64,000 nucleotides of DNA from Halobellus rarus. GTDB taxonomy: Archaea; Halobacteriota; Halobacteria; Halobacteriales; Haloferacaceae. The stretch covers positions 1-64,000 of the forward strand of contig NZ_JANHDI010000004.1 in assembly GCF_024494595.1 (NCBI RefSeq). Reading direction: 5' to 3'. The notes below the pieces were generated by a model. It was not told where the DNA came from, searched no databases, and saw only the letters and a program-made list of their open reading frames with translations. Position 1 is the first letter of the stretch. The number at the start of each line of letters is the position of its first letter. This document shows, piece after piece, positions 2,691 through 32,121 of this stretch. The position numbers and the translations under genes were made by a program.

Positions 2691-4034
2691 CTACTCGCTT
2701 TTCCGCTGATCCGCCGAATACGGCACTTCGCCGACCGTGGCAGTGATCTCACACTGGGCGTGGTCTTCGACCTTCGGATTCGGTGAGTCTTCCTCGCCCC
2801 ATATCAGCGTCACTTCGGTCCCGGGGTCGCTGTGTTCGACGTCGATACTGCACAGAGAGATGATCGTTCCCGCGTCGTACTCGTAGGAGCGCGAGTGCGA
2901 GAGTCCCACCAGTTCGTCGCTTTTCAGCACCTCGTCGTAGTTCGCCCGACCCCAGGCGATCCGCGGCAGGTCCATGAACTTGTTCGTCGCGCCCTCGCGG
3001 AACAGCGACGCGTAGACGTCGATGACGTCCTCCGCGTCCCACGCCAGCGAGACGAGGGTCCGATCCGGATTCTCGACCTTCGCTTCGAGCGCCTCGCGGC
3101 CGACGTAGTCGTGATCGAAGCTGATGAGCTTCTCGTACCCGAGTTCGATCGGATCCATGTAGTACTCGGAGATATCGTCGGAGACGAAACTCCCGTCGAT
3201 GGAGTACGTCGCCTCCCGGCTGTCGGCGTCGAGCCACTCGCGATAGTCGCTCATCTCCTCGACGTTGTAGATCGGCGGCACGCCCGGCGGCACCCACCCG
3301 AGCTTCACCGAAAGCGTGTGGTACGCCTTCGATCCGAGCTGTTCGAGCCCGTACTCATCGCCCGCCTCGACGATCGCTTCTTTCACCTGGTCGGCGTGCT
3401 CGAAGGGACCGATGAACTCGAAGCCGAACTCCGTCGACATCCCGTGACCGACCGCCAGCGTGTCGACGCCGGCGAGGTCGATCTCCTCGAAGTGGTAGAA
3501 CGGGATCGAATCCAGGTCCGCATCGGTGACTTGTTCGAGCACCTCACGCGCGTTGGGGCCCTGTACCTGGAAGACGAAGTTCTCGGGATCGCCCTCGTGT
3601 GCGGAGGTCCTGGGCTCGGTTTCGACGGTCGCGTCGTAGTCGCCGGTCTCCAGGTTGAAGCGAACCCAGTTCGCCGACAGCATACCGGCGCTGTAGTACT
3701 CGTCTTCGCCCAGTCGGAGCATCGGTCCGTCACCGATGATGTGGCCGTTTGGGTTACACATCACGAGCTGTTTCGCCCGCCCGACGTCGAAGTTCTCGAA
3801 GCTGTTGACGCTGAGATCGCGCAGCAGATCACGCGCGTCGGGGCCAGTGACGCGAAGCGACGTCATATGATGCGAGAGGTCGGCGAGCGATACGGATTCC
3901 GTGACGGCGCGCTGCTCGTCGAGCCAGTTCGTCTGCTCGTTCGGGACGACCGGAAAGTTGTCCGTGTAGTTGCCGCCCTTCCGTCGCAGTACTTCGACGG
4001 GGTTACCAGACGCCTGAATCTCTTCGGGGTCCAT
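2691..4034 (-). CDS. LigM/GcvT-like tetrahydrofolate-dependent O-demethylase
   Basis: A 447-residue member of the aminomethyltransferase (GcvT) fold. The N-terminal part (NEQTNWLDEQRAVTESVSLA, then SHHMTSLRVTGPDARDLL, SVNSFENFDVGRAKQLV and GHIIGD) follows the pattern I recall for LigM/DesA-type enzymes. Those transfer a methyl group from methoxy-aromatics such as vanillate to tetrahydrofolate. Length is close to LigM (about 470) and longer than typical GcvT (about 370). The rest of a glycine-cleavage system is absent here, and the neighbours are aromatic-type catabolic genes, which favours demethylation. Start at the ATG 4034, 31 bases from a TATA-like box; a GTG at 4055 would sit too near that box. 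A dimethylglycine-type demethylase is the main alternative. Confidence 0.75.
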   Translation of the reverse strand: MDPEEIQASGNPVEVLRRKGGNYTDNFPVVPNEQTNWLDEQRAVTESVSLADLSHHMTSLRVTGPDARDLLRDLSVNSFENFDVGRAKQLVMCNPNGHIIGDGPMLRLGEDEYYSAGMLSANWVRFNLETGDYDATVETEPRTSAHEGDPENFVFQVQGPNAREVLEQVTDADLDSIPFYHFEEIDLAGVDTLAVGHGMSTEFGFEFIGPFEHADQVKEAIVEAGDEYGLEQLGSKAYHTLSVKLGWVPPGVPPIYNVEEMSDYREWLDADSREATYSIDGSFVSDDISEYYMDPIELGYEKLISFDHDYVGREALEAKVENPDRTLVSLAWDAEDVIDVYASLFREGATNKFMDLPRIAWGRANYDEVLKSDELVGLSHSRSYEYDAGTIISLCSIDVEHSDPGTEVTLIWGEEDSPNPKVEDHAQCEITATVGEVPYSADQRKSE

Positions 4035-4060
4035 ACCTTGAGGGGATTCCCCCACACACT

Positions 4061-4156: not shown

Positions 4157-5146
4157 CTACAGGTCGAGCAGTCGCTTGATGTTGCCGGAGAAAATCTTCT
4201 CTCTGTCCGCCTGCGGAATGTCGAGATTCTCGATGAGCGGGATGATCTCGGTGGCCCAGTACTGTCCCTTGTCGGGACCGAACGGGTAGTCGGCGCTGTA
4301 GACGACGTTGTCCGCGCCGAAGAACTCCAACCCACACTCAAGCGGGTACGATTCGCCCTGGCTGCTGACGGCGGTGTCGCCGTAGATCCGGTCGAAGTAG
4401 GCGTCGAGCGGTTCAGAGAGGTCGGCGATCGCGGGATTCTGGTACAGTTCGGGCTCTTCGGTCCGAGTCTGATACCACGAGCGGATCCGACCGATCTGAT
4501 ACGGGAACGACCCCCCGAGGTGATGAGAGATGATCTTCAGGTTCTCGTGGCGGTCGAGCACGCCCGAGAAGATGAGTCGGGCCAGGGCGATGTTCGTGTC
4601 GAACGGCCACGCCAGCATCTTGTAGATCCACGTGTGAGACTGGTCGTAATCGTGCCAGTCGGCGAGTTGCGGGTGGATCCAGATGGGCGTGTCGAGGTCG
4701 TCGACGGTCGCGTAGAACTCCTCGAAGTCCTCGTCGTCGAGCATCCGACCGTCGATGTTCGAGAAGATCTGGACACCGTGCATCCCGAGGTCGTCGATGC
4801 ACCGGCGAACCTCGTCGACGTACTCGTCGGTGAGGAACGGCACCGTCGCCGACGGGATGAATCGATCGGGGTGTTCGTCGGCGATCTGTCGGATCTCGTT
4901 GTTCGCGATTCGGGTCGCCTCCAGGGCGTCGTCCGGGTCGATGCCCTGCCAGAGCATCGGCGCGGCGAGGTTGATCACCTGCCTGTCGATCCCGTTCTTG
5001 TCGAGATACTCGATCCGTCCCTCGACGTCGAACATCCGCGGCGCGTTGCGGAGGCTGTCCAGTTCGGAGGAGGGGTGGACCTTCTCCAGTTCGTCGAGCG
5101 CCTCGCTCGACATAATGTGCGAAGTGGCGTCTATGATCTCGGGCAT
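4157..5146 (-). CDS. Amidohydrolase-2 family enzyme, likely (de)carboxylase
   Basis: A 329-residue TIM-barrel amidohydrolase of the ACMSD / 5-carboxyvanillate decarboxylase / gamma-resorcylate decarboxylase group. Visible metal and active-site positions are His158 (IWIHPQ), His208-His209 (ISHHLGG) and Asp286 (SADYPFG). The N-terminal motif reads D6-A-T8-S-H10, so the first histidine of the usual HxH pair is replaced by Thr. Members of this group usually perform metal-dependent, non-oxidative decarboxylation of aromatic acids or ring-cleavage products. It lies 122 bases upstream of the LigM-like gene on the same strand, and each has its own TATA-like box. Substrate unknown; a hydrolase role is possible. 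It is clearly paralogous to the gene at 30301-31278. Confidence 0.8.
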   Translation of the reverse strand: MPEIIDATSHIMSSEALDELEKVHPSSELDSLRNAPRMFDVEGRIEYLDKNGIDRQVINLAAPMLWQGIDPDDALEATRIANNEIRQIADEHPDRFIPSATVPFLTDEYVDEVRRCIDDLGMHGVQIFSNIDGRMLDDEDFEEFYATVDDLDTPIWIHPQLADWHDYDQSHTWIYKMLAWPFDTNIALARLIFSGVLDRHENLKIISHHLGGSFPYQIGRIRSWYQTRTEEPELYQNPAIADLSEPLDAYFDRIYGDTAVSSQGESYPLECGLEFFGADNVVYSADYPFGPDKGQYWATEIIPLIENLDIPQADREKIFSGNIKRLLDL

Positions 5147-6749: not shown

Positions 6750-6778
6750 GGGAGCCGTCGTCGGTGCGATTCTGGTTT

Positions 6779-12847: not shown

Positions 12848-12934
12848 GCCGAACAGCGCCCGCGCGGTCTCCGCGCTGACCGCCTGCTCAGATCGGAGGG
12901 AGTATTATATACGTGGGCGGCGAACCCTGAGCGT

Positions 12935-13459: not shown

Positions 13460-13582
13460 CCTGGACTGGGGACCGGTGTCGGAACCGACACGAGGTCACG
13501 CTCGTGAGTGAGCGATCACCGGCGATCACAAGATCGGTGACAGAACGATTATGTCCTCCGGCGAGAAAACGGCGCGTGTCAA

Positions 13583-14311: not shown

Positions 14312-14339
14312 CGTCGCGGAGAACCTCAACCACCGACGT

Positions 14340-15248
14340 TCAACTCAGAAGGGTCACGCCGATCGCGCCGGCGACCGCGACGAGCGCGCCGACCACTAGC
14401 CGCGGCGTGATCCGTTCGAGGTTGTCGCTCACGAAGAGGATCGACAGGAAGATCACGACGAGCGGGCTCGACTGGACCAGCGGCACGACGAGCGACACCG
14501 GCTCCAACTCCAGCGCGCCGTAGTAGCCGAGCAGAAAGAGCGTGTTGGCGAGCCCCGCGCCGACCAGCCACGGGAGCTCGCGACGCTCTACATCCCGGAG
14601 ATCAGGGAGCCCCTCCGTCCACCAGAGATAGACGAGGAACCCGAGACCGGCGCTGACCGTCTTGACCGTCAGCCCGGTGAGGACCGCCGCGCCCTCCGCG
14701 AATCCGAGTTTGGCGAACGTCGGTTCGATGCCGTAGAAGAACGCCGCTGCGAAGGGGAACGCGAGGCCGGCGTAGCCCGCGCCGCCGTCGCCGCTGTCCG
14801 AACGCCCGTGCTCGTAGGTGATGATCGCGATGCCGAGGACGATGGCGATCATCGAGACGAGGTGGCCGCCGGTGACGACCTCGCCGAGGACGACGACGGC
14901 GATGAGCGAGGCGTGCAGCGGTTGTGAGGCCTTGATGGGTTCGGCGCGGCTGGACCCGATCCGCTTGATTCCCTCGAAGTGCATCGCCCGCCCGACCATC
15001 GTGCCGAGCAGCCCCGCGGCAGTGAACGCACCGAGAGAGCGGATCGTCAGGTCCTGTATCGGTGAGCCAAGCAGGAATGCAGCTGGGACCAAGGCGAGGA
15101 CGTTCACCGCGAGAACCACGACCAGGGCGTCCGACGAGTCGCTGGTGATCGTTCCATAGCGGATCGACAGCGACTGCACCGCCAGTGCGAACGCACCGAA
15201 CGCGGCCAGGAGGACACCGAGCGAGAGGACCTCTCCGCCGGGGATCAT
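14340..15248 (-). CDS. EamA/DMT-family transporter
   Basis: A 302-residue membrane protein with about ten hydrophobic segments in two repeated halves, as in the drug/metabolite transporter (EamA) family. Examples are VLLAAFGAFALAVQSLSIRY in the first half and the glycine-rich AGLANTLFLLGYYGALE in the second. It probably exports or exchanges a small metabolite. It separates the two ABC importer clusters and may remove a toxic pathway intermediate; that role is inferred. Confidence 0.85.
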   Translation of the reverse strand: MIPGGEVLSLGVLLAAFGAFALAVQSLSIRYGTITSDSSDALVVVLAVNVLALVPAAFLLGSPIQDLTIRSLGAFTAAGLLGTMVGRAMHFEGIKRIGSSRAEPIKASQPLHASLIAVVVLGEVVTGGHLVSMIAIVLGIAIITYEHGRSDSGDGGAGYAGLAFPFAAAFFYGIEPTFAKLGFAEGAAVLTGLTVKTVSAGLGFLVYLWWTEGLPDLRDVERRELPWLVGAGLANTLFLLGYYGALELEPVSLVVPLVQSSPLVVIFLSILFVSDNLERITPRLVVGALVAVAGAIGVTLLS

Positions 15249-15423
15249 CGCGTCGCTCCCGTTCCGGTGTCGGTACGAGCGGCTTTCAGGGCGTTGGGAC
15301 TCTCGATAGAGCTGCGTTTCATCGATACCGACGTGGACGTGTCACGACATAACAGTTGTCATTCACCGGACGGCATCGGATCGGGAAGTCGACAGGGGCG
15401 TGGCGGAAGCGAGCCCGGTCGGA

Positions 15424-16185
15424 CTATCGCCACCGCATAATGCGGTGTTCGGCGGCACGTAGCCCTTCCTGTCCGACGATAATCAGGATCACGGGAACGA
15501 CCACCCACCCGAGGAGGAGGTCGACCCGCTGCTGCTGGAACCAGTAATTGACCATATAGCCGACCCCGGAGCCGGAGCCGAACACCTCGGCGATGAAGAG
15601 GACCTTCCAGGAGACGACGAGCCCCCAGTACATCGAGGGGAAGAGGTACTGGAGGACCTGCGGGAGGAGGATATCGCGGTACCGCTGGAGGCGCCCCGCG
15701 CCGAAGAAATCAGCCATCTCCGTGATCTCGGGATCGAGTTCCTGCGTGCCCTCCCACATGTTCAGAATCACGAACGGGACGCCGACGATCACGACCGTCA
15801 GGACGGGCACCCACTCCGAGATGCCCAACGCGATGATGAGCGCGAACGCGACCGCGATAGACGGCACCGAGAGCCCGAGGACGATCCACGCACGTAGAAA
15901 TGCCTCCGCCTCCTTGCGAAGACCCATCGCCGTTCCGACGACGGTGCCGACGACGACCGAGATGGCGAACCCGGCCAGCAGTCGCCGGAACGTATCGAGG
16001 ATGTTGCTCCGGTAGGTGCCGAACTGGGGGTCAGTGATCACCGTTTGAGTGGCCACGACCAGTTCGACCAGGCCGGGGAGGACGTACGACGGGAAGAACT
16101 GCGAGCCCACCTGCCAGGCAGCCAGAAGCACTACCGCCACGGCCGCCTTCTTTTCGATATTTCGTTCTTGGATGTAAGAATACAT
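15424..16185 (-). CDS. ABC importer 2, permease A
   Basis: A 253-residue permease of the nitrate/sulfonate/taurine family with about six hydrophobic segments and an EAA-like loop (MADFFGAGRLQRYRDILLPQ). It begins 25 bases after the binding-protein gene and shares its transcript. The FFGAG loop is also found in permease B of this system (18333-19121) but not in importer 1, so the two permeases of importer 2 are closer to each other than to importer 1. Substrate unknown. Confidence 0.87.
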   Translation of the reverse strand: MYSYIQERNIEKKAAVAVVLLAAWQVGSQFFPSYVLPGLVELVVATQTVITDPQFGTYRSNILDTFRRLLAGFAISVVVGTVVGTAMGLRKEAEAFLRAWIVLGLSVPSIAVAFALIIALGISEWVPVLTVVIVGVPFVILNMWEGTQELDPEITEMADFFGAGRLQRYRDILLPQVLQYLFPSMYWGLVVSWKVLFIAEVFGSGSGVGYMVNYWFQQQRVDLLLGWVVVPVILIIVGQEGLRAAEHRIMRWR

Positions 16186-16210
16186 AGGTAATATCGAGAC
16201 GTTGAAGCCG

Positions 16211-17296
16211 TTACTGCGGGTTCCGGAGGACGTCGTCCTGCGATGGCATCTCTTCGAGGAACTCGTAGCTGCTCATCAGTTCGACGAACTCCCAAGTGGC
16301 GTCGCGGTAGTCGTCTGTGGTGGTGTCACGGAAGATCTGCCCGTCGTTGGCCCACTCGTCGACGACGTCGACCTTCGCCTGGTTGTCGATGGAGGCCGTC
16401 TCGCCGTACTCGTCGAGGATGGAGACGGTGTTCTCCCGCCAGTGTTCCGTGGCGCTCTGCCCGCCACGGAGGAGCGCCGCGGCGGTTTCGGTGTTGTTCT
16501 CGTACCAATCCGAGTAGCTCCACCACGAGGTGAGTGGCAGGGTGTAGCCAGTCCGCTCCCGCCACATCTCGTTCAGTTGCGTCAGCCGGCGGTACGTGTC
16601 GGGGTCGGATTCCATCGTGATCGTGAGCCCGCTCACGTTGATCACGCCGTCGATCTCCTCGTCCTGCAGGAGGCCGAGGAGGGCGGGCGGCGCGGCGGTC
16701 GTCGTTCCGAAGTCCTGCCGCAGTCGGAGGCCGGACTCCTCGGCGACGACGGCTTGGAACGCCTGGACCGTCGAGGATCCCCACGACCAGACACCGATTC
16801 GCTGGCCCTCCAGTTCCCCGATCGATTCGTAATCGCTGCTGGCTCGGGTGTACAGCGCGTTGATGCTCTGAAGGCAGCCGTCCCAGCCGAACGTGACGAG
16901 GTCTTCCCCCTGGATGTAGTTGCCCATATAGGGGATCATCGAGACCATATTGACGTCCACTTCTCCGCTGGTCAGCGACTGTACTTGTGCGCTGAACGGC
17001 GCGTAATCGACCGTGAGGTCGATCCCTTCCGCCTCGAAGACGCCCGCGTCCGTCGCGGCCTCGTACATCGGATAGTGGATCGTACCCTCGGGGAGCTGGA
17101 TCCGGACGGACGTCAGATCGTCCCCCCCGGAGCCGGCAGTAGTTCCCTCTGACCCACCATCGCCGCTATCACCGTCTCCGCTACCACCGCCGTCACCGCT
17201 GTCGCCGCCGTTCCCACCGCTGCTACAACCGGCCAGTCCGGCGATCCCAACAGCACCCGATCCAGCGATGAACCGCCTTCTGCTAACACGATGCAT
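16211..17296 (-). CDS. ABC importer 2, substrate-binding lipoprotein
   Basis: A 361-residue binding protein with a Tat signal (SRRRFIAGSGAVG), a lipobox (LAGC) and a short Gly/Ser/Asp linker. The mature domain (VRIQLPEGTIHYPMYEAATD onward) has the features of SsuA/TauA/NMT1-like proteins. Start at ATG 17296. It is similar in layout to the importer 1 binding protein but diverged in sequence, so the ligands probably differ. Confidence 0.88.
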   Translation of the reverse strand: MHRVSRRRFIAGSGAVGIAGLAGCSSGGNGGDSGDGGGSGDGDSGDGGSEGTTAGSGGDDLTSVRIQLPEGTIHYPMYEAATDAGVFEAEGIDLTVDYAPFSAQVQSLTSGEVDVNMVSMIPYMGNYIQGEDLVTFGWDGCLQSINALYTRASSDYESIGELEGQRIGVWSWGSSTVQAFQAVVAEESGLRLRQDFGTTTAAPPALLGLLQDEEIDGVINVSGLTITMESDPDTYRRLTQLNEMWRERTGYTLPLTSWWSYSDWYENNTETAAALLRGGQSATEHWRENTVSILDEYGETASIDNQAKVDVVDEWANDGQIFRDTTTDDYRDATWEFVELMSSYEFLEEMPSQDDVLRNPQ

Positions 17297-21231: not shown

Positions 21232-22908
21232 ATGCTACACGCCAACGGTTCGCTGCTGACGGTCGACGTGGGCGACCGCACAGCGGAGACGACGAACATC
21301 GACGACGAACTCGAGGAGTTCGTCGGCGGACGAGGCGTCTCGACGAAACTCGCGCACGACCGGATCCCCTTCGACGCCGACCCGCTCGGCCCGGAGAACC
21401 GCGTCTACCTCGCCTCGGGGCCCCTCCAGCAGTCATCGATGAGTTTCACCGGCCGGATGAACATGACCGGCCTCTCACCGCTGACCGACGGACTGCTCTC
21501 CTCGAACGCCGGCGGGTATCTCTCGCGGAACTTCGTCGGAACCGGCCACTCGGTCGTCGAAGTCGCCGGCGAGAGCGACGAACTCCTCGCAGTCCACGTC
21601 ACCGACGAGGGCGTCGAGTTCGAGGAGGTCCCGGAGCTGGCGGGCGCGACCGTCCCCGAGGTGACCGAGGAGATGAACGAGCGGTACGGACTCGAGGCGG
21701 AGAACCTCGTCACGATCGGCCCCGCGGGCGAGAACGAGGTTCGGTTCGCCGCCGCGATGACCTACGACGAACGGGCGTTCGGTCGCGGCGGCCTCGGGGC
21801 GATTCTCGGCTCGAAGAACGTCAAGTGTCTCACCTTCGAGGGGGACTCCGCCCCCGACGTCGACCTGCCGAACGAGGACGTCCACATGGACGTCCATCGG
21901 CAGGCGGCCACGAGCGACGACATCTTCCGCCGACAGGGGACGACCCACCTCGTGCAGGTCCTCAACGACAACTTCTCGCTGCCGACGCGGTACTTCTCGG
22001 AGATGTCGTTCGAGCACGCCGAGAAGATCAACGGCGACCGCGTCGAGGAGAAGAAGTACAAGAAGGCGGCCTGTTCGGTCTGCGCGTTCGCCTGTAAGCT
22101 CCCGACCCGCGACGAGGAGCGAGGCGTGGAGACGGAGGGACCCGAGTTCGAGACGGTCATGGCCTTCGGCAGTAACTCCGGCGTCGGCGACATCGTCGAC
22201 GTTATGAAGTCTAACGGCCTCTGTGACGATCTCGGGATGGACACCATCTCCTGTGGAAACACCATCGCCGCCTACCTCGCCAGCGAGGACGAGTTCGGCA
22301 ACGTCGAGTTGATCCACGAACTCATCGAGAAGATCGCCCGCCGCGAGGGCGTCGGCGACAAACTCGCCGAGGGCATCGACCGCATCCACGAGGACCTCGA
22401 CGTCGAGAACTGGTCGGTGAAGGGGATGGACTTCGCCGCCCACGACGGCCGCGTCGTCCACGGGCAGGGGCTCTCCTACGCGGTGGCTAACCGCGGTGCC
22501 GACCACATGTACTCGACGCTGATGATTCCGGAGTACAACGACGTCATCCCCGCGGAAGGGACGGCCGGGAAGGCCGACTTCCTGATCGATCACGAGAACC
22601 GCAACGCTGTCCGCGACTGTGCAGTGCTCTGTCAGTTCGGGCTCGGCCGCGTCATCGAAGAGGATGTCTTCGAGGCCCTCTTCGAGGAGGACTACGAGGA
22701 CATCCTCGCGATCGGCGATCGAATCGTGAACCTCGAACGGCACTTCAGCAACCAGCGCGGCCGCGACGCCGACGACGACCGCCTCCCCTACGACCTACCG
22801 GACCTCGAGTCCTCGATTCAGGAGTACTACGAGGCCCGCGGGTGGACCGACGACGGAATCGTCCCCGGCGACCTCGTCGCGGACTTCGCCCAGGCCGCCG
22901 ACGACTGA
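21232..22908 (+). CDS. Aldehyde:ferredoxin oxidoreductase family protein
   Basis: A 559-residue AOR-family protein; these use a tungsten- or molybdenum-bispyranopterin cofactor and one [4Fe-4S] cluster to oxidise aldehydes to acids with ferredoxin. Cluster cysteines are visible at 281, 284 and 288 (CSVCAFAC) with the fourth at 467 in DCAVLC, the DxxxLC pattern of the family. The N-terminal domain has GGRGVSTKLAHD and the SFTGRMN pocket segment. Haloarchaea carry several AOR paralogs of unknown substrate. Position next to the ring-cleavage dioxygenase suggests an aromatic or unsaturated aldehyde, or ring reduction by analogy with benzoyl-CoA-type BamB; that is inference only. Confidence 0.9.
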   Translation: MLHANGSLLTVDVGDRTAETTNIDDELEEFVGGRGVSTKLAHDRIPFDADPLGPENRVYLASGPLQQSSMSFTGRMNMTGLSPLTDGLLSSNAGGYLSRNFVGTGHSVVEVAGESDELLAVHVTDEGVEFEEVPELAGATVPEVTEEMNERYGLEAENLVTIGPAGENEVRFAAAMTYDERAFGRGGLGAILGSKNVKCLTFEGDSAPDVDLPNEDVHMDVHRQAATSDDIFRRQGTTHLVQVLNDNFSLPTRYFSEMSFEHAEKINGDRVEEKKYKKAACSVCAFACKLPTRDEERGVETEGPEFETVMAFGSNSGVGDIVDVMKSNGLCDDLGMDTISCGNTIAAYLASEDEFGNVELIHELIEKIARREGVGDKLAEGIDRIHEDLDVENWSVKGMDFAAHDGRVVHGQGLSYAVANRGADHMYSTLMIPEYNDVIPAEGTAGKADFLIDHENRNAVRDCAVLCQFGLGRVIEEDVFEALFEEDYEDILAIGDRIVNLERHFSNQRGRDADDDRLPYDLPDLESSIQEYYEARGWTDDGIVPGDLVADFAQAADD

Positions 22909-23093: not shown

Positions 23094-24038
23094 ATGGCAG
23101 AACTTGCCAAACTCGGACACATAGCCTTCGAGACGCCCGATCTCGAGGAGTCGCTGTGGTTCTTCCGGGATCTGATGGGAATGAAGGTCGTCGAACGCGA
23201 CGACGACACCGCATATCTCTGTGCGCTCCGGGATTACGAGCATCACACGATGAGCCTCACGGAGGGTGAGAAAGGCGCGGTCGACCACATCGGGTTCCGT
23301 GCGAAAAACCCCGAGTCCGTCGAGGAGTACGCGGACCGGTTCGAGGAACTCGGTCGAGACGTCTGGTGGACTGAGGACGGCCACGAGGCCGGCATCGGCG
23401 ACTCGATAATGTTCGAATCGGAGTCGGGCCACCGCTTCGAGATCTACTACGAGATGGAGAAGCCGGACATCGACGGCGAGCAGCGCTCGAACATCCCGAT
23501 GCGCCGGTACAGCCCCGAGTACGCGAACCGGGTGTACCCCCAGCGAATCGACCACACGCACGTGCAGGACGGCAATCCCGAGGCGACCTCCCGGCTCTTC
23601 GAGGAGGAGTTCGGGATGGGGCTCAACGAGGTCTTCAAATCCGAGGACGGCACGACGTGGGGCTGGTGGCACGCGACGACGCCGCTGCCGCACGACATCG
23701 CCGTCCACCGACTTGAGGAGGACGAGACGGAGTTCCACCACATCGCCTACCACCTCGATCACCTCCAGGACCTGTGGGACGCCGCCGACATCCTCTCGGA
23801 GAACAACGTCGAGATCGACGGCGGACCGGGCAAGCACGCCATCACGAACGCGAACTACCTCTACGTGAACGACCCCGCTAGCGGCATCAGGCTCGAACTG
23901 TTCGCCGGACCCGGTTATCTCAACTTCGAACCCGACTGGGAGACGGTCGTCTGGCAGGAGGACATCGGCTCGGAATCGGACCACCAGTGGTTCGGGACAC
24001 AGTACAGCCTCGGCGGCATCCCGTACACGGATCGCTAG
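23094..24038 (+). CDS. Extradiol ring-cleavage dioxygenase (catechol 2,3-dioxygenase type)
   Basis: A 314-residue two-domain vicinal-oxygen-chelate extradiol dioxygenase. The iron ligands are His154 (RIDHTH), His215/216 (EFHHIAYH) and Glu268 (RLELF). Second-sphere residues His200, His248 and Tyr257 fall at nearly the same positions as His199, His246 and Tyr255 of P. putida catechol 2,3-dioxygenase (His153, His214, Glu265), which supports activity. It inserts O2 next to the two hydroxyls of a catechol to give a 2-hydroxymuconic semialdehyde. The exact catechol (plain, alkylated or carboxylated) is not readable. The lower-pathway genes follow within 6 kb. Confidence 0.9.
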   Translation: MAELAKLGHIAFETPDLEESLWFFRDLMGMKVVERDDDTAYLCALRDYEHHTMSLTEGEKGAVDHIGFRAKNPESVEEYADRFEELGRDVWWTEDGHEAGIGDSIMFESESGHRFEIYYEMEKPDIDGEQRSNIPMRRYSPEYANRVYPQRIDHTHVQDGNPEATSRLFEEEFGMGLNEVFKSEDGTTWGWWHATTPLPHDIAVHRLEEDETEFHHIAYHLDHLQDLWDAADILSENNVEIDGGPGKHAITNANYLYVNDPASGIRLELFAGPGYLNFEPDWETVVWQEDIGSESDHQWFGTQYSLGGIPYTDR

Positions 24039-24071
24039 GTAGTCTGCACCGCGAATCTCCGCTGTTCTGTA

Positions 24072-24854
24072 CTACTCGTCGGCGAGTCGGGCGTTGACGG
24101 TCCCGATCGAAGTGAACTCGACGGAGACGACGTCGCCGGGTTCCAGATCGACCGCGGGCGTCAGCGAACCGCTCAGGACGACGTGCCCCGATTCGATCCG
24201 CTCATCGAGGTCCGACAGCGTGTTCGCGAGCCAGGCCACCGACCGAGCCGGGTGGTCCAGGACGGCCGCGCCGACGCCGGAGGACTCGAGCGTGCCGTTC
24301 TTGTAGAGTTTGACGCCCTCCAGAGAGAGGTCCGTGTCGGCGAGGCTCGTCTGCTCGCCCGCGACGTACAGCGCCGAGGAGGCGTTGTCGGCGATGGTGT
24401 CTTGAATTCGAATGTCCCAGTCGCGGACGCGGCTATCGATGACTTCGACGACGGGGAGGACAGATCCCGTCGCGTCGAGGACGTCGAGATACGTCACCGG
24501 CGGTTCGAGCGGTTCGTCCATGATAAAGCCGATCTCGGGTTCGATCCGCGGCTGGATCAGGTCCTCTCCGGGGATCTCTCTCCCTTCGACGAACATCGTG
24601 TCCAGCAGTCGGCCGTAGTCGGGTTCGTCGACGCCGAGTTGCTCCTGGATGCCGTCGCTCGTGAGGCCGATCTTGTGGCCGGCGATCTCCGCGCCGTCGT
24701 CGAGGCGACGGTCGATAAACCTCGTTTGGACGTCGTAGGCGTCCGACATCGTCAGGTCGTGCTCGGCGGTGAGCCGATCGACCGGTTCCTGCGTCCGCAG
24801 CGCGTCGTAGAGCGCCTCCGCCAGCTCTTCGCGTGTCTCGTCTGAAACTGCCAT
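24072..24854 (-). CDS. 2-oxopent-4-enoate (2-hydroxypentadienoate) hydratase
   Basis: A 260-residue enzyme of the FAH-like MhpD/XylJ family. It matches the hydratase branch: HKIGLTSDGIQEQLGVDEP, then QPRIEPEIGFIM with metal-binding glutamates, VVEVIDSRVRDWDIRIQDT and ADNASSALYV. It adds water to 2-oxopent-4-enoate giving 4-hydroxy-2-oxovalerate, the substrate of the aldolase at 25467-26519. It converges with the dioxygenase gene (33 bases between ends). The paralog at 29306-30091 carries decarboxylase-type signatures instead. Confidence 0.88.
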   Translation of the reverse strand: MAVSDETREELAEALYDALRTQEPVDRLTAEHDLTMSDAYDVQTRFIDRRLDDGAEIAGHKIGLTSDGIQEQLGVDEPDYGRLLDTMFVEGREIPGEDLIQPRIEPEIGFIMDEPLEPPVTYLDVLDATGSVLPVVEVIDSRVRDWDIRIQDTIADNASSALYVAGEQTSLADTDLSLEGVKLYKNGTLESSGVGAAVLDHPARSVAWLANTLSDLDERIESGHVVLSGSLTPAVDLEPGDVVSVEFTSIGTVNARLADE

Positions 24855-24959
24855 AGGATCGCTACCGCCGGAGGCGTCAAATAGGTTGGTGATCCGGCCG
24901 ATGCCACCAAGACGACGGCGCGATGTCGGCGATTTCCGCCGGAGACGTGGATCCCGGAC

Positions 24960-24967
24960 ATTTATGC
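24960..24967 (+). promoter_or_regulatory. TATA-like box for the VOC gene
   Basis: Sequence atttatgc centred about 27 bases before the ATG at 24991; it decides that start over longer upstream frames. Confidence 0.5.
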
Positions 24968-24990
24968 GATATTACCCCCGATTCACCGGT

Positions 24991-25377
24991 ATGGACGTAA
25001 TCCACAGCGCGATTTGGGTCTCGGACATCGACCAGACGCTCGACTTCTACGTCGGTGAGTTGGGACTGGAGAAGACCAACGACTTCGTCGGCGGCGACGA
25101 CGCCCGGAACGTCTACGTGCGCGGCGAGAGCGAGACGGAGATTCAGTTCAAACACAAGGCCGACCACGACCTCGGCGAGCCTTCTACCCAACGGTTCGAT
25201 CACTTAGCTCTCGAAGTCGACGACACAGACGCCCTAGCCGAGCGACTCACCGAAGAGACCGAGAGCGAACTCCTCCGCGGCCCCCTCGACTCGACCGGCG
25301 CGAGCGCGCGGATCGCCTTCGTCACCGACCCCGACGGCCACGTGATCGAACTGATCGAGCCGCGCGAGGACCTCTGA
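24991..25377 (+). CDS. Small VOC/glyoxalase-I-like metalloprotein
   Basis: A 128-residue single-module vicinal-oxygen-chelate protein. Putative metal ligands His5, Glu50, His71 and Glu120 fall almost exactly where glyoxalase I of E. coli has His5, Glu56, His74 and Glu122. It could isomerise an alpha-keto-aldehyde adduct, epimerise a thioester, or help with ring-cleavage products. Too short to be a two-domain extradiol dioxygenase. It sits between hydratase and aldolase genes, on the opposite strand, with its own promoter. Function within the pathway is unknown. Confidence 0.8.
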   Translation: MDVIHSAIWVSDIDQTLDFYVGELGLEKTNDFVGGDDARNVYVRGESETEIQFKHKADHDLGEPSTQRFDHLALEVDDTDALAERLTEETESELLRGPLDSTGASARIAFVTDPDGHVIELIEPREDL

Positions 25378-25466
25378 ATCGTAGCAGGCGGCCGGTAATC
25401 GAGTCGGAAAATCGGGGCGAAAACCGCGAACGGCGCGAACCGAATTCTGCGATCGGAACCGACCGA

Positions 25467-26519
25467 TCAGTCGTCGTCGGAAGCGGCTTCCGCGGCCGGA
25501 CCAGCGTCCCGTTCCTCTGCGAGGCGGGACGCGACGTCGGTGATCAGGTCCTCCTGGCCGCCGACGACCTCCATCTCGCCGAGTTCCACCAGGATCTCCC
25601 GGGGGTCGATACCGTACTTCTTCCCCGCGCGACGGGTGTGTCGGAGGAACGACGAGTAGACGCCAGCGTAGCCCAGCATCAGCGAGTCGTTGTCGAGTTT
25701 CGGCATCTCGTCCTCGTCGATCATCGGAACCAGGACGTCCTCGGCGGCGTCCATCACGCCGAAGAAGTCGGGGTTGATGTCGTAGCCGGCCTTCTCTAAG
25801 ACGCCGACCAGGACCTCGATCTGTGCGTTGCCCGACCCGGCACCGAGGCCGCGGAGGCAGCCGTCGGTGGTCACCGCGCCCTCTTCGAGCGCCGCGAGCG
25901 TGTTGCCGATGCCGAGCCCGAGGTTGTTGTGTGCGTGGAAGCCGACGTCGATGGAGAGTTCGTCGACGAGCAGGCTGATGCGGTCGCGAACGTCGTTGGG
26001 TAGGAGCGCGCCCGCGGAATCCATCAGGTAGACGGCGTCCGCGCCGTACTCCTCCATCAGTTTCGCTTCCTTGAGGATCCGCTCCGGTTCGGCCATATGC
26101 GAGAGCATCAGCAGGCCGTTGGCCTCCAGTCCCCGGTCTTTGACGTACTCGAAGTGGTCCTCGGAGACGTCGGCCTCGGTGACGTGCGTCGCGATCCGAC
26201 AGATGTCCGCCCCGTGGTCGACGGCCGTGTCCAGTTCTTCGACCGTGCCGATGCCCGGGAGCAGGAGCACCGAGAGCTCGGTGTCGGTGAGTTCGGGCAC
26301 GACCGCGTCGAGGTACTCCTCGGTGTCGGCCGCGGCGAAGCCGTAGTTGATCGAGGAGCCGCCCATCCCGTCGCCGTGGGAGACCTCGACGACGTCCATC
26401 TCCGCGGCGTCGAGCGCGGCCGCGACCTCGGCCATCTCCTCGGGCGTGAACTGGTGGTCGACGGCGTGCATCCCGTCTCGGAGCGTCATATCGACCAGCC
26501 GGACGTCCGCGTCAGTCAT
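25467..26519 (-). CDS. dmpG: 4-hydroxy-2-oxovalerate aldolase
   Basis: A 350-residue DmpG/BphI/MhpE-type class II pyruvate aldolase. Key features match the family: TLRDGMH with Arg14, Asp15 and His18 (Arg17, Asp18, His21 in DmpG), metal ligands in FHAHNN (His195, His197), and the C-terminal GYAGVYSSFLRH segment. It splits 4-hydroxy-2-oxovalerate to pyruvate and acetaldehyde and normally forms a channelled complex with the acylating acetaldehyde dehydrogenase. That gene lies immediately upstream, and the ATG at 26519 overlaps its stop by 8 bases, so the two are translationally coupled. A GTG at 26528 is a less likely start. An Ala/Glu/Asp tail of about 15 residues is added. Confidence 0.95.
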   Translation of the reverse strand: MTDADVRLVDMTLRDGMHAVDHQFTPEEMAEVAAALDAAEMDVVEVSHGDGMGGSSINYGFAAADTEEYLDAVVPELTDTELSVLLLPGIGTVEELDTAVDHGADICRIATHVTEADVSEDHFEYVKDRGLEANGLLMLSHMAEPERILKEAKLMEEYGADAVYLMDSAGALLPNDVRDRISLLVDELSIDVGFHAHNNLGLGIGNTLAALEEGAVTTDGCLRGLGAGSGNAQIEVLVGVLEKAGYDINPDFFGVMDAAEDVLVPMIDEDEMPKLDNDSLMLGYAGVYSSFLRHTRRAGKKYGIDPREILVELGEMEVVGGQEDLITDVASRLAEERDAGPAAEAASDDD

Positions 26520-27456
26520 CGCTGACACCCCCGATGGCGTCGGCGTCGACTGCGTGCTGTGCCACCCGTTCGGCCGCTCCGAGTGCTGCGCTTGTCATGA
26601 TGTCTAGGTTGCCCGCGTAGGGGGGAAGGTGCTGGCCCTCGCCCTCGACTTCGAGCATCGTGGTGAGGATGATCTTGTCTTCGAGGTCGAAGGCGACGTC
26701 GTCCTGATCCTTCACCGTCGGTTCCAGCGTGACGTCGTAGCCGGGGACGTACTCCCGGACCGCCGATTCGATCCGGGAGACGGAGTCTTTGACCTCGTCG
26801 ACGTCCGTGTCCTCGTGGACCATCGTGTAGACGGTGTTCCGCATCATAATCGGCGGCTCCGCCGGGTTCAGCGTGATGATCGCTTTCCCCTCGTCGGCGC
26901 CGCCGACCTCTTCGAGGCCGGCCGCGGTCGTCTGCGTGAACTTATCGATGTTCTGTCTGGTTCCCGGGCCGGCGCTCTTCGAGGCGATGTGCGAGAGCAT
27001 CTCCGCGTATTCGACGTCCGAAACGCGGTCGACCGCGTGGACGAGCGGGATCGTCGCCTGCCCGCCGCAGGTGACTATGTTGATGTTCTCGTGACCGCTC
27101 GCGACGACGTCGTCGACGTTGACGACCGGGACGGTGTAGGGGCCGATCGCCGCCGGCGTGAGGTCGACGGCGAACAGACCGAGTTCCTCGTAGACCGGCG
27201 CGTGCTGCTCGTGGATACCCGCGCTGGTGGCCTCGAAGACCACGTCGAACTCGTCGGCGTACTCTTTGACGCTGTCGATGCCGTCGGTGCCGACGCCGAC
27301 GCCCTCGTCGACGGCCGCCTGGAGCCCCTCGCTCTCCTCGACCGGGAAGATGCCGATCATCCGCTGGAGATCGATCTCCTCTCCGCGGTCGAGTATCTTG
27401 TACATCAGGTCGGTTCCGATGTTACCCGGACCGACGATCGCCGCATCTAACGACAT
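26512..27456 (-). CDS. dmpF: Acetaldehyde dehydrogenase (CoA-acylating)
   Basis: A 314-residue DmpF/BphJ/MhpF-type enzyme. The NAD-binding start is AIVGPGNIGTDLMYK, the catalytic cysteine is Cys130 in TCGGQATIP, and GPGTRQNIDKFT plus NPAEPPIMMRNTVY are family signatures. It converts the acetaldehyde released by the coupled aldolase to acetyl-CoA, using NAD and CoA. First gene of a two-gene operon with dmpG. Start at ATG 27456 with a TATA-like box about 27 bases upstream. Confidence 0.95.
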   Translation of the reverse strand: MSLDAAIVGPGNIGTDLMYKILDRGEEIDLQRMIGIFPVEESEGLQAAVDEGVGVGTDGIDSVKEYADEFDVVFEATSAGIHEQHAPVYEELGLFAVDLTPAAIGPYTVPVVNVDDVVASGHENINIVTCGGQATIPLVHAVDRVSDVEYAEMLSHIASKSAGPGTRQNIDKFTQTTAAGLEEVGGADEGKAIITLNPAEPPIMMRNTVYTMVHEDTDVDEVKDSVSRIESAVREYVPGYDVTLEPTVKDQDDVAFDLEDKIILTTMLEVEGEGQHLPPYAGNLDIMTSAALGAAERVAQHAVDADAIGGVSDD

Positions 27457-27478
27457 ACGCTCAGGTACGAATCTATCG

Positions 27479-27488
27479 TACTAATAAC
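27479..27488 (-). promoter_or_regulatory. TATA-like box of the dmpF-dmpG operon
   Basis: Plus-strand tactaataac, centred about 27 bases upstream of the ATG at 27456; leaderless-type spacing. Confidence 0.55.
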
Positions 27489-27647
27489 TTCGCTTGGCAC
27501 CGAGCGGCACTGGAGAGCGTTTCACCGACAGATAGTGCCGAAAGGCTCGAAAACGGCGTCCAACCGAAGTGCCGACAGATCGGGGTAGTCCCGGGGGATG
27601 CTGACAGATCCGGGTAGTCGATCCGGGAAGCCTGTCAGCGCCCGCGC

Positions 27648-29132
27648 TTAGAACGGGTACTCACGCGGCTCCCGCTGGACCGACGTCCACTTGGTCTCGG
27701 TGAACTCGTCGATGATCCACTTACCGTTGTAGCGGCCGAGTCCGGAATCCTTGACGCCCCCGAACGGGACGTGCGGTTCGACGTTGACCGGCTGGTCGTT
27801 GACGTGGATCATTCCGACGTGGATCCGGTCGGCGACGTCGCGTGCGCGTCCGCGGTCGACCGAGTGAACGGAACCCGCGAGGCCGTACTCGGTCGCGTTC
27901 GCGAGTTCGACCGCCTCGTCGTCGTCGCCGAACGGGATGATCGGCGCGACGGGGCCGAAGTGCTCGTTGCACGCGGCGGCCATATCGTTCGTGACGTCTC
28001 TGATGACGGTCGGCTCGACGAACAGGCCGTCGGCGTCGCCGCCGGTGAGGAGCGTACCGCCCTCCTCGACCGTCCGGTCGATGTAATCCAGCATCTCGTC
28101 GCGCTGGGACTCGTTGATGATCGGTCCGATCACGACGTCGTCGTCGGTGGGATCGCCGATCTTCAGCTCCGAGGCGCGCTCGGCCAGCCGCTCGGCGTAC
28201 TCGTCGTAGAGGGACTCGTGAACGAGGTGACGGTTGATCGAGATGCAGACCTGTCCCTGGTTCCAGAAGGAACCGAAGACCCCGGCGTCGACGGCCTGAT
28301 CCAGATCGGCGTCTTCGAGGACGACGTGGGGGTTGTTGCCGCCGAGTTCCAGAGCCGGGAACGCGAAGTGTTGGATGGCGTTCTCGCCGACGAGCCGGCC
28401 CGCGCCGGTCGATCCCGTGAACGCGACGACGTCGCAGTCGGGGTGCGCCGCCGTGCGGTCGCCCGCGACGGAGCCGCGTCCGGGAACGACGTTGAGCACG
28501 CCGTCGGGGAGCCCGGCCTTCTCGAAGAGGCGCGCGAGCAGCAGGCCGCCGGAGATTGTCGACTCCTGGGCGGGCTTGAGCACGACGCTGTTACCCAGCG
28601 CGATGGCGGGCGCGACCGCGCGGATCGAGAGCTTCATCGGGACGTTCCACGGCGAGATCACGCCGACGACGCCGACGGGGTCGCGCTGGATGATGTTCTC
28701 CTTGCCGGGGATCTTCGACTGGTTGTGGCCGCCCGAGGAGCGGAACGCGAAGGACGCGGCGTCGTGAACGAAGGTGACCGTTCCGCCGTGTTCGATGTCC
28801 TGTCGCGGCTTTGCGGCCCCCGTCTCGACGGCGAGGATCTCCCGAATCTCGTCCTCGTACTCGTCGATCAGATCGGCCGTCCGACGGACGACTGCGGCGC
28901 GCTCGTCGGGGGTCGTCTCCTCCCACTCCGTCTGTGCGCGGGTCGCTGCCTCGAACGCGCGATCGACGTCCTCGACGGTCGCCGCCGGCACCTCCGTGAT
29001 CGATTCCTGGGTCGTCGGGTTCCGGATGTCGATCCGATCTCGGCCGTCGGGCGCCTCCCACTCGCCGTCGATGTAGAGTCCGCCCCAGGGCGCATCGATC
29101 GATATCCGTTGGTCGCGTTCGGCTTCTTGCAT
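27648..29132 (-). CDS. Aldehyde dehydrogenase, aryl-aldehyde or muconic-semialdehyde type
   Basis: A 494-residue aldehyde dehydrogenase. Catalytic Glu262 is in LELGGNNP and the nucleophile Cys296 in FWNQGQVCISINR. The WNQGQ context is typical of the benzaldehyde/vanillin/salicylaldehyde dehydrogenase subgroup. Its divergent neighbour is the 4-oxalocrotonate-decarboxylase-type gene, whose route needs a 2-hydroxymuconic semialdehyde dehydrogenase; this enzyme is the best candidate by position, while its sequence leans to aryl aldehydes. Start at ATG 29132, with an AT-rich box about 28 bases upstream; a longer frame upstream runs into the control region. Confidence 0.87.
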   Translation of the reverse strand: MQEAERDQRISIDAPWGGLYIDGEWEAPDGRDRIDIRNPTTQESITEVPAATVEDVDRAFEAATRAQTEWEETTPDERAAVVRRTADLIDEYEDEIREILAVETGAAKPRQDIEHGGTVTFVHDAASFAFRSSGGHNQSKIPGKENIIQRDPVGVVGVISPWNVPMKLSIRAVAPAIALGNSVVLKPAQESTISGGLLLARLFEKAGLPDGVLNVVPGRGSVAGDRTAAHPDCDVVAFTGSTGAGRLVGENAIQHFAFPALELGGNNPHVVLEDADLDQAVDAGVFGSFWNQGQVCISINRHLVHESLYDEYAERLAERASELKIGDPTDDDVVIGPIINESQRDEMLDYIDRTVEEGGTLLTGGDADGLFVEPTVIRDVTNDMAAACNEHFGPVAPIIPFGDDDEAVELANATEYGLAGSVHSVDRGRARDVADRIHVGMIHVNDQPVNVEPHVPFGGVKDSGLGRYNGKWIIDEFTETKWTSVQREPREYPF

Positions 29133-29305
29133 ACGCTCGATGCAACGAGCGCCACGAGTAAAATGATGTCGACCCCGGAACCCAGCTCTCATTATATTCT
29201 GAACGATGTCGAGTAACTAAATACAGTTACCTAACGGTATCCTCTCGTGATCAGAAATCTGCCTGTCGAAAGTATAATGAGTGCACCGGCGAAGGGGTAG
29301 AGTGT
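29133..29305. promoter_or_regulatory. Divergent control region
   Basis: 173 bases between the aldehyde dehydrogenase (minus) and the decarboxylase gene (plus). It contains a TATA-like cattttac (minus strand, around 29158-29165) and tataat (plus strand, 29273-29278), each 27-30 bases from its ATG. A shared operator for one of the IclR proteins could lie between them; I see no clear palindrome. Confidence 0.5.
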
Positions 29306-30091
29306 ATGCCACTCAGCCAGGACGAGGTCGACCGCCTCGCGACGAAACTCTACGAGGCCTACGACGAGAAGGAGCCGATCGAACCGCTGACCGACGACGT
29401 CGAATTCTCCACGGAGGACGCCTATCGTATCCAGTTCGAGGTGTTCGACCGCCTCAGCGAGGGTGGGCGCGAGGACGTCGTCGGCCACAAACTCGGCCTC
29501 GTGAGTGAGGCGAAACAGGAGCAACTCGGCATTCCGGAACCCATCTTCGGCTACGTCGCCCACGAGACGGTACTGGAGAACGAGCCGATTCCGACCGACG
29601 AGATGATCGCTCCCCGGATCGAGGCCGAAATAGGCTTTATCCTCGACGAGGACCTCACGGCACCGGTCTCGACGATGGACGTCCTCACGGCGACGCGAGC
29701 GGTGGTCCCGGTCGTCGAGATCCTCGAGAGCCGCTATCAGGGCTGGGCGATCCCCTCCGCACAGGACGTCATCGCAGACCTGACTTCCGCCGGCAAGGTC
29801 ATCGTCGGCGAGCAGTACCGCGACGTGACGGACGTCGACCTGAAGATGGAGAGCGTCGCCGTCTCGGTGAACGGCGAGGTCGAAGCCACCGGCATCGGCG
29901 GCGACATCATGGGCAACCCCGCGCGCCCCGTCGCGTGGCTCGCGGACCGACTGGCCGACGTCGACGACGGTCTCCGCGAGGGCGAACTCGTGATGAGCGG
30001 CGGCATCTCCGCCGCCATCGACATCGAACCCGGCGACGTCTACACCGTCGAGTTCGCGAACCTCGGCTCGATGGAGATCCGCGCCGAGTAA
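29306..30091 (+). CDS. 4-oxalocrotonate decarboxylase-like protein
   Basis: A 261-residue protein of the same fold as the hydratase at 24072, but with XylI-type features: GHKLGLVSEAKQEQLGIPEP with IFGYV, then RIEAEIGFIL, VVEILESRYQGW, and MSGGISAAI near the C-terminus, close to the decarboxylase pattern MTGGITAA. XylI removes CO2 from 2-oxohex-3-enedioate (4-oxalocrotonate) giving 2-oxopent-4-enoate, and acts in complex with the hydratase. Assigning hydratase and decarboxylase roles by these motifs is my inference. It has its own leaderless-type promoter. Confidence 0.82.
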   Translation: MPLSQDEVDRLATKLYEAYDEKEPIEPLTDDVEFSTEDAYRIQFEVFDRLSEGGREDVVGHKLGLVSEAKQEQLGIPEPIFGYVAHETVLENEPIPTDEMIAPRIEAEIGFILDEDLTAPVSTMDVLTATRAVVPVVEILESRYQGWAIPSAQDVIADLTSAGKVIVGEQYRDVTDVDLKMESVAVSVNGEVEATGIGGDIMGNPARPVAWLADRLADVDDGLREGELVMSGGISAAIDIEPGDVYTVEFANLGSMEIRAE

Positions 30092-30300: not shown

Positions 30301-31278
30301 CTACGAGATGAGGTCGTAGAGATTGTCTGCGAAGATGCTCTCACGGGTGCCGTCGTCGACGTCCATCCGGTCGACGGCGTCGATGGTGTACTCGACCGTT
30401 TGACGACCCCGCTCGGGGCTGAACGGGTAGTCGGTCCCGAAGACCACGTTCCCGGCGTCGAAGAAGGACTCGGCGCATTCGAGCGCCGGCGTCGACCCCG
30501 AGACGGCCGTGTCCGCGTTGAACTTCTTGAAGTACTCCTCGGCGGGTTTCGAGAGTTCGGCGGCGTGCTCGTGGTATCCCTGGTAGTTCTCTGGGTAGGC
30601 CATCCGCTGCTGGTAGAACATCTCGATCCGGCGGCCGTAGAACGGGACCATCCCGCCGCCGTGGTGTGAGACGATCTGGAGGTCGGGGTACTCCTCCATC
30701 ACGCCGCCGAAGACCAGCCGCGACAGGGCGAGTGTCGTGTCGAACGGCCACCCGAAGAGCCGGTGTTCCATGTACTCGGAGGCCCAGTCGTACCACTCCC
30801 AGAGCTGGGGATGCATCCACAGCGGCGTGCCGGTCGCCTCCGCGCGCTCGAAGAGCGGCCAGAAGCGATCGTCGTCGAGGGGTCTCCCGTCGACGTTCGA
30901 GAAGATCTGGACGCCGGCCATATCGAGGTCGTCGACGCAGCGGTCGAACTCCGCGAGGAACTCCTCGCTCACCTTCGGAATCGTTCCGACGGGAATGAAA
31001 TCGTCCGGGTGTTCGTCGGCGAGCCGTCGGATCTCGTCGTTGGCCAACCGGGTGATGTCCAGCGCGAGGTCGTGGTCCATCCCCTGGAACATCGTCGGCA
31101 GCGCGAGCGTGATGACCTGCTTGTCGACCCCGTAATCGGCCATGTCCTGCTTCCGCTGGTCGTGATCCCAGAGGAACTCCGGACGTCCCGAGAGGCCCTG
31201 GAAGCCGAACTTGTCCGTGAGGTCCTCGAAGAACCGTTCCGTCAGTACGTGCGTGTAGCCGTCGACGATTTCCGGCAT
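30301..31278 (-). CDS. Amidohydrolase-2 family enzyme, likely (de)carboxylase (paralog 2)
   Basis: A 325-residue TIM-barrel amidohydrolase paralogous to 4157-5146. Active-site landmarks are His156 (LWMHPQ), His205-His206 (VSHHGGGM) and Asp283 (GTDYPF). The N-terminal metal motif is D6-G-Y8-T-H10: Tyr replaces the first histidine of HxH. The nearest functional groups are ACMSD, 5-carboxyvanillate and gamma-resorcylate/o-pyrocatechuate decarboxylases. With an extradiol dioxygenase nearby, an aromatic-acid decarboxylase producing a catechol is a natural guess. Start at ATG 31278. The neighbouring IclR gene ends 75 bases upstream on the same strand. Confidence 0.8.
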   Translation of the reverse strand: MPEIVDGYTHVLTERFFEDLTDKFGFQGLSGRPEFLWDHDQRKQDMADYGVDKQVITLALPTMFQGMDHDLALDITRLANDEIRRLADEHPDDFIPVGTIPKVSEEFLAEFDRCVDDLDMAGVQIFSNVDGRPLDDDRFWPLFERAEATGTPLWMHPQLWEWYDWASEYMEHRLFGWPFDTTLALSRLVFGGVMEEYPDLQIVSHHGGGMVPFYGRRIEMFYQQRMAYPENYQGYHEHAAELSKPAEEYFKKFNADTAVSGSTPALECAESFFDAGNVVFGTDYPFSPERGRQTVEYTIDAVDRMDVDDGTRESIFADNLYDLIS

Positions 31279-31353: not shown

Positions 31354-32121
31354 TCACTGCCTGGCGTACTTGATATCCAAGGCGAGTTCGTGGGCGGTGC
31401 TTTCCACTTCCGCGGTGATGTCGTCGTCGAAGCCGGCGTTGCCGAGTCGCTTCGTGGGCGCGGAGATACTGATAGCTCCGAGGACGTCCCCGCCGAGTTT
31501 GACCGGCGCGCCGATACAGGTGAGTCCCTCGGTTCGTTCCTCGTTATCGGTCGCGTACCCCCGTTCGCGGATCGTCTCTAACTCCTCGAACAGTTCCTCG
31601 CGGTCGGTGATCGTGTTCTCGGTCGCCTCCGGTAATCCCCACTCCTCGACGATGGACTCGACTCGGTCGCGGGAGAGCGAAGCGAGGATGGCTTTTCCGA
31701 TGCCGATATTGTGCAGTCTGAGTCGGTATCCCACGTGCGTGTCGAGGTGAACGGCGTAGTTCCCGCGGGACTGGTACAGATAGACCGCCCGCCCGCCCTC
31801 CTCGGTCGCGAGGTTCGCGAGCATTCCCGTGTCGCTCGCCAACTGGTCGATCTTCGAGCGACCGTACTGGTACAGCGGCGATCGACTTCGAACGTGTCCC
31901 CCGAGCGAGAGGAACTTCAGGCTGAGGGCGTACTCGTCGCCATCTTTCTTGACGTACCCGTGTTCCCGAAGGGTGCTGAGATGGTTGTGGATCCCGCTTT
32001 TGCTCATATCCAGGCGATCTTCGAGTTCGCTGAGTCGAAACCCGTCGTCGGTGTCGAGCGTCTCGATCAGCCTCAGTGTTTTTTCGCTCGTGCGGACGGG
32101 ATGGTTCGCCTTTTTCCCCAT
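31354..32121 (-). CDS. IclR-family transcriptional regulator (right edge)
   Basis: A 256-residue IclR regulator: an N-terminal winged helix (SEKTLRLIETL, then LSELEDRLDMSKSGIHNHLS), then the effector domain with GRAVYLYQSRG, LHNIGIGKAIL and GAISISAPTKRL. It lies upstream of amidohydrolase 2 on the same strand and marks the right boundary of the catabolic genes. The start ATG 32121 is chosen over an upstream alternative at 32172 because the family N-terminus begins here. Confidence 0.9.
   Translation of the reverse strand: MGKKANHPVRTSEKTLRLIETLDTDDGFRLSELEDRLDMSKSGIHNHLSTLREHGYVKKDGDEYALSLKFLSLGGHVRSRSPLYQYGRSKIDQLASDTGMLANLATEEGGRAVYLYQSRGNYAVHLDTHVGYRLRLHNIGIGKAILASLSRDRVESIVEEWGLPEATENTITDREELFEELETIRERGYATDNEERTEGLTCIGAPVKLGGDVLGAISISAPTKRLGNAGFDDDITAEVESTAHELALDIKYARQ

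Follow-up and report, generated by a model that had tools for sequence, protein, structure and literature searches.

Aerobic degradation of aromatics in haloarchaea has so far been described mainly as gentisate and ortho-cleavage pathways, which use other ring-cleavage chemistry and other genes than those considered here (PMC4005966, PMC6140281). Meta-cleavage of phenol is already known in another archaeon, Sulfolobus (PMC6140281), and a genome survey placed enzymes leading from catechol to the tricarboxylic acid cycle in 176 Halobacterota genomes, with no screened archaeal genome encoding complete hydrocarbon-degradation pathways (PMC9535955). The closest bacterial systems are the TOL pWW0 and dmp pathways, the opa genes of Pseudomonas PTH10 for 2,3-dihydroxybenzoate, the Paenibacillus pra clusters for protocatechuate 2,3-cleavage, and the BphC region of Geobacillus plasmid pBt40. 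PraA is a protocatechuate 2,3-dioxygenase (PMC12455638), and PraH and OpaD are ACMSD relatives that act as carboxy-hydroxymuconate-semialdehyde decarboxylases, OpaD having been assayed (PMC6362003). Here we describe a meta-cleavage cassette in a 64,000-nucleotide stretch (the window; contig C18) of the Halobellus rarus genome (3.66 Mb, 97% complete). No earlier description of such a haloarchaeal cassette was found in the open-access literature. An earlier note on this DNA, drawn from its letters alone, had called a meta route in a haloarchaeon unusual; no description of it turned up in that literature, but it is no single oddity, as it recurs among haloarchaea and has the Sulfolobus precedent.

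The cassette and its flanking genes are as follows, with start codons set by comparison with relatives.

21232..22908, plus strand: AOR, aldehyde:ferredoxin oxidoreductase; goes with the cassette in Halobellus, Natrarchaeobius and genome G064
23094..24038, plus strand: EDO, type I extradiol ring-cleavage dioxygenase
24072..24854, minus strand: HYD_E, putative 2-hydroxypenta-2,4-dienoate (2-oxopent-4-enoate) hydratase
24991..25377, plus strand: VOC, single-domain glyoxalase-fold metalloprotein, candidate tautomerase
25467..26528, minus strand: ALD_G, 4-hydroxy-2-oxovalerate aldolase carrying a DmpG communication domain; starts with GTG at 26528 or ATG at 26519
26512..27456, minus strand: ADA_F, acylating acetaldehyde dehydrogenase
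27648..29132, minus strand: ALDH, aldehyde dehydrogenase, probable 2-hydroxymuconate-semialdehyde dehydrogenase; longest open reading frame from 29192
29306..30091, plus strand: DEC_H, FAA-family protein, probable 2-oxo-3-hexenedioate (4-oxalocrotonate) decarboxylase
30301..31278, minus strand: AMH, amidohydrolase-2 (ACMSD/LigW-like) that probably decarboxylates the ring-cleavage product
31354..32121, minus strand: IclR-family regulator, closest models BhcR and PcaR/PcaU/PobR

The genes that the earlier note listed between 23094 and 30091 are all present where it placed them; AMH, VOC, the IclR gene and AOR had escaped it. Counterparts of the type I extradiol enzyme, aldehyde dehydrogenase, decarboxylase, hydratase, aldolase and acylating acetaldehyde dehydrogenase are shared with TOL pWW0 and dmp. 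Unlike those systems, the Halobellus cassette is without the XylH tautomerase, XylF and the XylT ferredoxin, adds AMH, VOC and the IclR protein, and has genes on both strands, a feature already recognized; its EDO also stands far from XylE in the tree. The Paenibacillus clusters, identified as pra by their gene content and from later papers, contain the same lower-pathway enzymes with an adjoining amidohydrolase. They differ in that ring cleavage is by a LigB-type (type II) dioxygenase whereas that of Halobellus is type I, in holding a tautomerase and a flavin adenine dinucleotide (FAD) hydroxylase, neither of which is in the Halobellus cassette, and in an amidohydrolase with a different metal motif that shares about 27% of its residues with AMH. 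The opa system is alike in pathway logic, a carboxylated catechol passing through an ACMSD-like decarboxylase into the lower meta pathway (PMC6362003), but unlike opa no ring-hydroxylating dioxygenase was found beside the Halobellus cassette. BphC of pBt40 likewise lies beside homologues of the hydratase, the acetaldehyde dehydrogenase and the aldolase, and differs in having upper genes of a biphenyl/phenylpropanoid type.

The block very probably constitutes a real, conserved haloarchaeal lower meta pathway. Gene presence, family membership, conservation and the catalytic residues of EDO can be read directly from the sequence. ADA_F is encoded by 23 of 391 Halobacteria genomes, distributed over nine genera in five families; full-length strong EDO matches occur in 27 genomes, and 21 have both. 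Eight other Halobellus genomes have the same gene set; in one of them the locus lacks EDO, and apart from that genome gene order is constant in the Halobellus loci read. Close loci are found in Halobellus rufus, inordinatus and captivus, whereas Natrarchaeobius, Halostagnicola, Halarchaeum and others carry the same genes rearranged. The Halarchaeum AMH is 78-79% identical to that of the window while its EDO is only 50-51% identical, suggesting that some cassette components may have undergone exchange. Recurrence of the gene set in Halobellus and in other haloarchaeal families excludes a chance assembly, and its occurrence in five families likewise led to rejection of acquisition by a single strain. 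The proposal of a haloarchaeal meta-cleavage lower pathway is well supported, and the genome search suggested along with it shows the cassette to recur.

Two branch types can be distinguished among these loci. Those of genomes G003, G012 and G215 have the dioxygenase, hydratase, acetaldehyde dehydrogenase and aldolase without DEC_H, VOC or ALDH, and two have a XylF-like hydrolase nearby. By gene content these represent the hydrolytic branch, and loci with DEC_H, ALDH and VOC the oxidative branch, which is the usual split. The G003 dioxygenase reaches the catechol 2,3-dioxygenase cut-off (320.4 versus 320.2 bits on TIGR03211). In two further genomes (L172, L173), ALD_G and ADA_F have neither EDO nor an FAA-family gene as a neighbor.

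The terminal enzymes exceed their curated cut-offs. ALD_G scores 472 bits on TIGR03217 (cut-off 286) and contains the PF07836 communication domain, and ADA_F scores 377 bits on TIGR03215 (cut-off 282). As two equivalogs encoded by adjacent, overlapping genes, the aldolase bearing the communication domain, they display the features of a DmpG/DmpF channelling pair. HYD_E is closest to DmpE, at 254 bits on TIGR03220 against a cut-off of 409; it also matches a chain of the 8ih6 hydratase, and it falls near hydratases in one tree and beside DEC_H in another. ALDH clearly belongs to the generic aldehyde dehydrogenase family and scores 333 bits on TIGR03216 (cut-off 693). Because HYD_E, DEC_H, ALDH and EDO are in the right families but below the equivalog cut-offs, their exact reactions are predictions.

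DEC_H scores 191 bits on TIGR03218 (DmpH/XylI; cut-off 351), and its best match in the PDB is the NahK decarboxylase. In a tree of the FAA family, rebuilt without Thermus rows after long-branch artefacts in the first version and with the DmpE of another plasmid in place of pWW0 XylJ, DEC_H is sister to the haloarchaeal hydratases (91/99 support), which suggests local duplication. A grouping with XylI and bacterial decarboxylases is not rejected by the approximately unbiased test (p-AU 0.33). The decarboxylase role is proposed mainly because DEC_H is restricted to loci with oxidative-branch genes. The route is thus not a complete or classical one, given this apparent hydratase kinship and the missing 4-oxalocrotonate tautomerase.

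EDO is composed of two VOC-type domains and belongs to the type I extradiol fold family. In a 17-sequence alignment the metal ligands H154, H216 and E268 are invariant, as are the second-sphere residues H248 and Y257, with H200 nearly so; the alignment bears out the two-domain dioxygenase with three ligands and a His/His/Tyr second sphere that had been predicted. Its best-scoring family is TIGR03211 (catechol 2,3-dioxygenase). EDO falls in a well-supported clade of 19 dioxygenases (99/92 support), and in Bacillales, in Thermus and in other haloarchaea its relatives have DmpE/F/G homologues as neighbors. The genome has six EDO paralogues in total, including a divergent second EDO on a contig other than that of the cassette. 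A second divergent EDO (34%) adjoins the main one in Halobellus limi (L036 7188-8099) and in genome G217 (L037 7176-8087).

A clue to the ring substrate comes from the amidohydrolase. AMH adjoins 17 of the 19 dioxygenases in the EDO clade, and no haloarchaeal dioxygenase sampled from elsewhere has it alongside, which suggests specific handling of the product or substrate of EDO. Its nearest sequence is the uncharacterised hydrolase 3ij6, followed by LigW and ACMSD; comparison with the LigW/ACMSD decarboxylases gives about 97 bits, versus about 40 for LigJ/LigY. (An AlphaFold model of AMH had a mean predicted local distance difference test score, pLDDT, of 54 and was discarded.) A related amidohydrolase adjoins the same lower-pathway genes in the Paenibacillus pra-like clusters. 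The window genome also encodes six LigM/DesA-like O-demethylases (399-446 bits; contigs C16, C18 and C20), none above the equivalog cut-off and three reported with one in-frame stop; one of the LigM-like genes and an EDO paralogue are about 100 bp apart. Together, the link of AMH to one clade, the pra-like clusters and the LigM-like genes favor an input of methoxylated aromatic acids and of catechols bearing a carboxyl group. On this evidence the chances are about even that the substrate is carboxylated and that AMH serves as a decarboxylase, and the ring compound is likely to be protocatechuate (2,3-cleavage) or 2,3-dihydroxybenzoate (3,4-cleavage).

Several observations weigh against this interpretation. 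EDO scores 245.8 bits on TIGR03211, below the cut-off of 320, and the best characterised relative found is the Mn-dependent BphC of pBt40 (45%), of a type that favors uncharged, 3-substituted catechols (PMC8671467). AMH shares only about 27% identity with the PraH-like proteins of Paenibacillus, and the first His of its HxH metal motif is replaced, although the later His and Asp are kept and the family is amidohydrolase-2; AMH is thus a distant relative rather than a demonstrated PraH. EDO and AMH occur alone in Halobaculum and in relatives of Halobacterium bonnevillei that gave no ADA_F match, and no ring-hydroxylating enzyme was identified adjoining the cassette. Finally, DEC_H scores (194 bits for DmpE versus 191 for DmpH) cannot separate a decarboxylase from a second hydratase.

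Some of these points feature in alternative explanations. Plain catechol, the substrate named in the earlier note, is not established, and the constant AMH neighbor points more to a carboxylated catechol. With plain catechol as substrate, EDO would be a catechol 2,3-dioxygenase and AMH an upstream non-oxidative decarboxylase of aromatic acids, comparable to LigW or 2,3-dihydroxybenzoate decarboxylase. AMH is equally close to LigW and ACMSD, TIGR03211 is the best family for EDO, and one cassette (G064b) has another EDO and is without AMH. This arrangement is nevertheless unlikely, since the window EDO falls short of the cut-off (246 versus 320) that the hydrolytic-type G003 enzyme attains, and since AMH is bound to a single EDO clade. 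The BphC kinship would instead suit 3-substituted catechols (phenylpropanoid or biaryl type), whose ring-cleavage product AMH would then split as a C-C hydrolase; LigY demonstrates that amidohydrolases are able to act on meta-cleavage products. AMH is far from LigY (38 bits), however, and a hydrolytic route would not require ALDH, DEC_H and VOC, all of which are conserved in these loci, making this alternative improbable.

It is hardly credible that EDO is non-catabolic or that its neighbors are a chance set of general enzymes. VOC proteins have many roles, and aldehyde dehydrogenases and amidohydrolases are common, but the EDO catalytic residues are all kept, the gene set is conserved across families, and the DmpF and DmpG homologues exceed curated cut-offs. 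A non-catabolic VOC reading of EDO was rejected on conservation, and the grouping with non-catabolic VOC proteins that had been raised as a possible refutation did not occur, its relatives standing beside DmpE/F/G homologues.

One gap in the pathway is the tautomerase. No 4-oxalocrotonate tautomerase (PF01361) was detected in the 97%-complete Halobellus genome, whereas a control search finds one in Haloferax volcanii. A close DEC_H is present in 18 genomes, and PF01361 matches over the cut-off occur in five of these, one of them strong and none at the cassette. VOC, by comparison, is present at all 20 loci with DEC_H and at none of the five loci that have neither DEC_H nor an ALDH next to it; at one more locus, in a draft where genes are split, VOC is present but DEC_H is not intact. 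A Fisher test of the association gives p = 9e-5, and 0.018 when each genus counts once, values that are indicative only, coming from hand-tabulated counts of related loci. ALDH fits the pattern equally well, which ties VOC to the whole oxidative branch rather than to one step.

A structure model of VOC (pLDDT 80) matches the nickel glyoxalase I fold. Its H5, H71 and E120 align with Escherichia coli GloA, whose metal ligands are H5, E56, H74 and E122; Q52 is invariant and lies one column off E56. VOC enzymes such as methylmalonyl-CoA epimerase carry out metal-assisted proton transfer, a chemistry that makes a tautomerase role plausible. The assignment of VOC as a substitute tautomerase is nonetheless tentative and rather doubtful. 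By analogy, this step may need no enzyme at all: loss of the PraC tautomerase was tolerated, and even helped growth, in an engineered protocatechuate 2,3-cleavage pathway (PMC12455638).

From these comparisons we infer the individual reactions, the ring compound that is cleaved, and what AMH, VOC and DEC_H do; the cassette probably takes a catecholic, likely carboxylated, ring to pyruvate and acetyl-CoA. EDO would open the ring beside the diol, and AMH would decarboxylate the carboxylated product to 2-hydroxymuconate semialdehyde, which ALDH (in some relatives perhaps AOR) would oxidise to 2-hydroxymuconate. Following tautomerisation, either spontaneous or by VOC, DEC_H would decarboxylate the product to 2-hydroxypenta-2,4-dienoate, to be hydrated by HYD_E. 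ALD_G would then cleave the hydrated compound to pyruvate and acetaldehyde, and ADA_F, coupled to ALD_G, would convert acetaldehyde to acetyl-CoA. A bolder version, in which the pathway was rebuilt for carboxylated catechols, with VOC replacing the tautomerase, DEC_H arising by duplication of a haloarchaeal hydratase independently of XylI, and an HxH-less AMH acting as decarboxylase, is unlikely to hold in all its parts.

The claim that most genes have their own leaderless promoter is partly sustained. Of 10 start codons, 9 are preceded at a distance of 24-38 nt by a TATA-like hexamer (4 or more of 6 positions matching), compared with about 12% of random positions, which fits leaderless transcription for most genes. 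The exception is ALD_G, which has no such box; ALD_G overlaps ADA_F, and the two are probably co-transcribed. The IclR protein is probably the regulator of the block. In one G064 cassette, AOR is present where the stretch read showed no ALDH, and AOR may perform the ALDH step there.

Two further genes of note lie in the upstream part of the window.

2691..4055, minus strand: LigM/DesA-like O-demethylase, which may feed the cassette from a distance of about 19 kb
4157..5146, minus strand: AMH2, a second amidohydrolase, 42% identical to AMH

Positions 1305-8497 group these two with an IclR regulator and a thiamine pyrophosphate (TPP) enzyme. In Halobellus rufus (L074) the same O-demethylase and amidohydrolase have a further EDO and an additional LigM-like gene close by, and a Sagittula stellata plasmid (L060 6786-11456) has a TPP enzyme, an AMH2-related amidohydrolase and an aldehyde dehydrogenase together, like the upstream part of the window. 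Between this group and the cassette, positions 9497-17296 encode two lipoprotein-like substrate-binding proteins and an ATP-binding cassette (ABC) ATPase; the NMT1-like binding protein (16211-17296) is near the cassette in other Halobellus too, making this a candidate uptake system. Halobaculum plasmids (L059 10775-12942, L182 7869-9954) carry a short-chain dehydrogenase/reductase (SDR) gene, AMH and EDO in that order without the lower pathway.

A conserved meta-cleavage cassette in several haloarchaeal families supplies a named gene set for tests in salt-saturated environments and in saline bioremediation. The absence of the tautomerase, together with its VOC correlate, would provide a clean biochemical test of whether one enzyme family has taken over that step from another.

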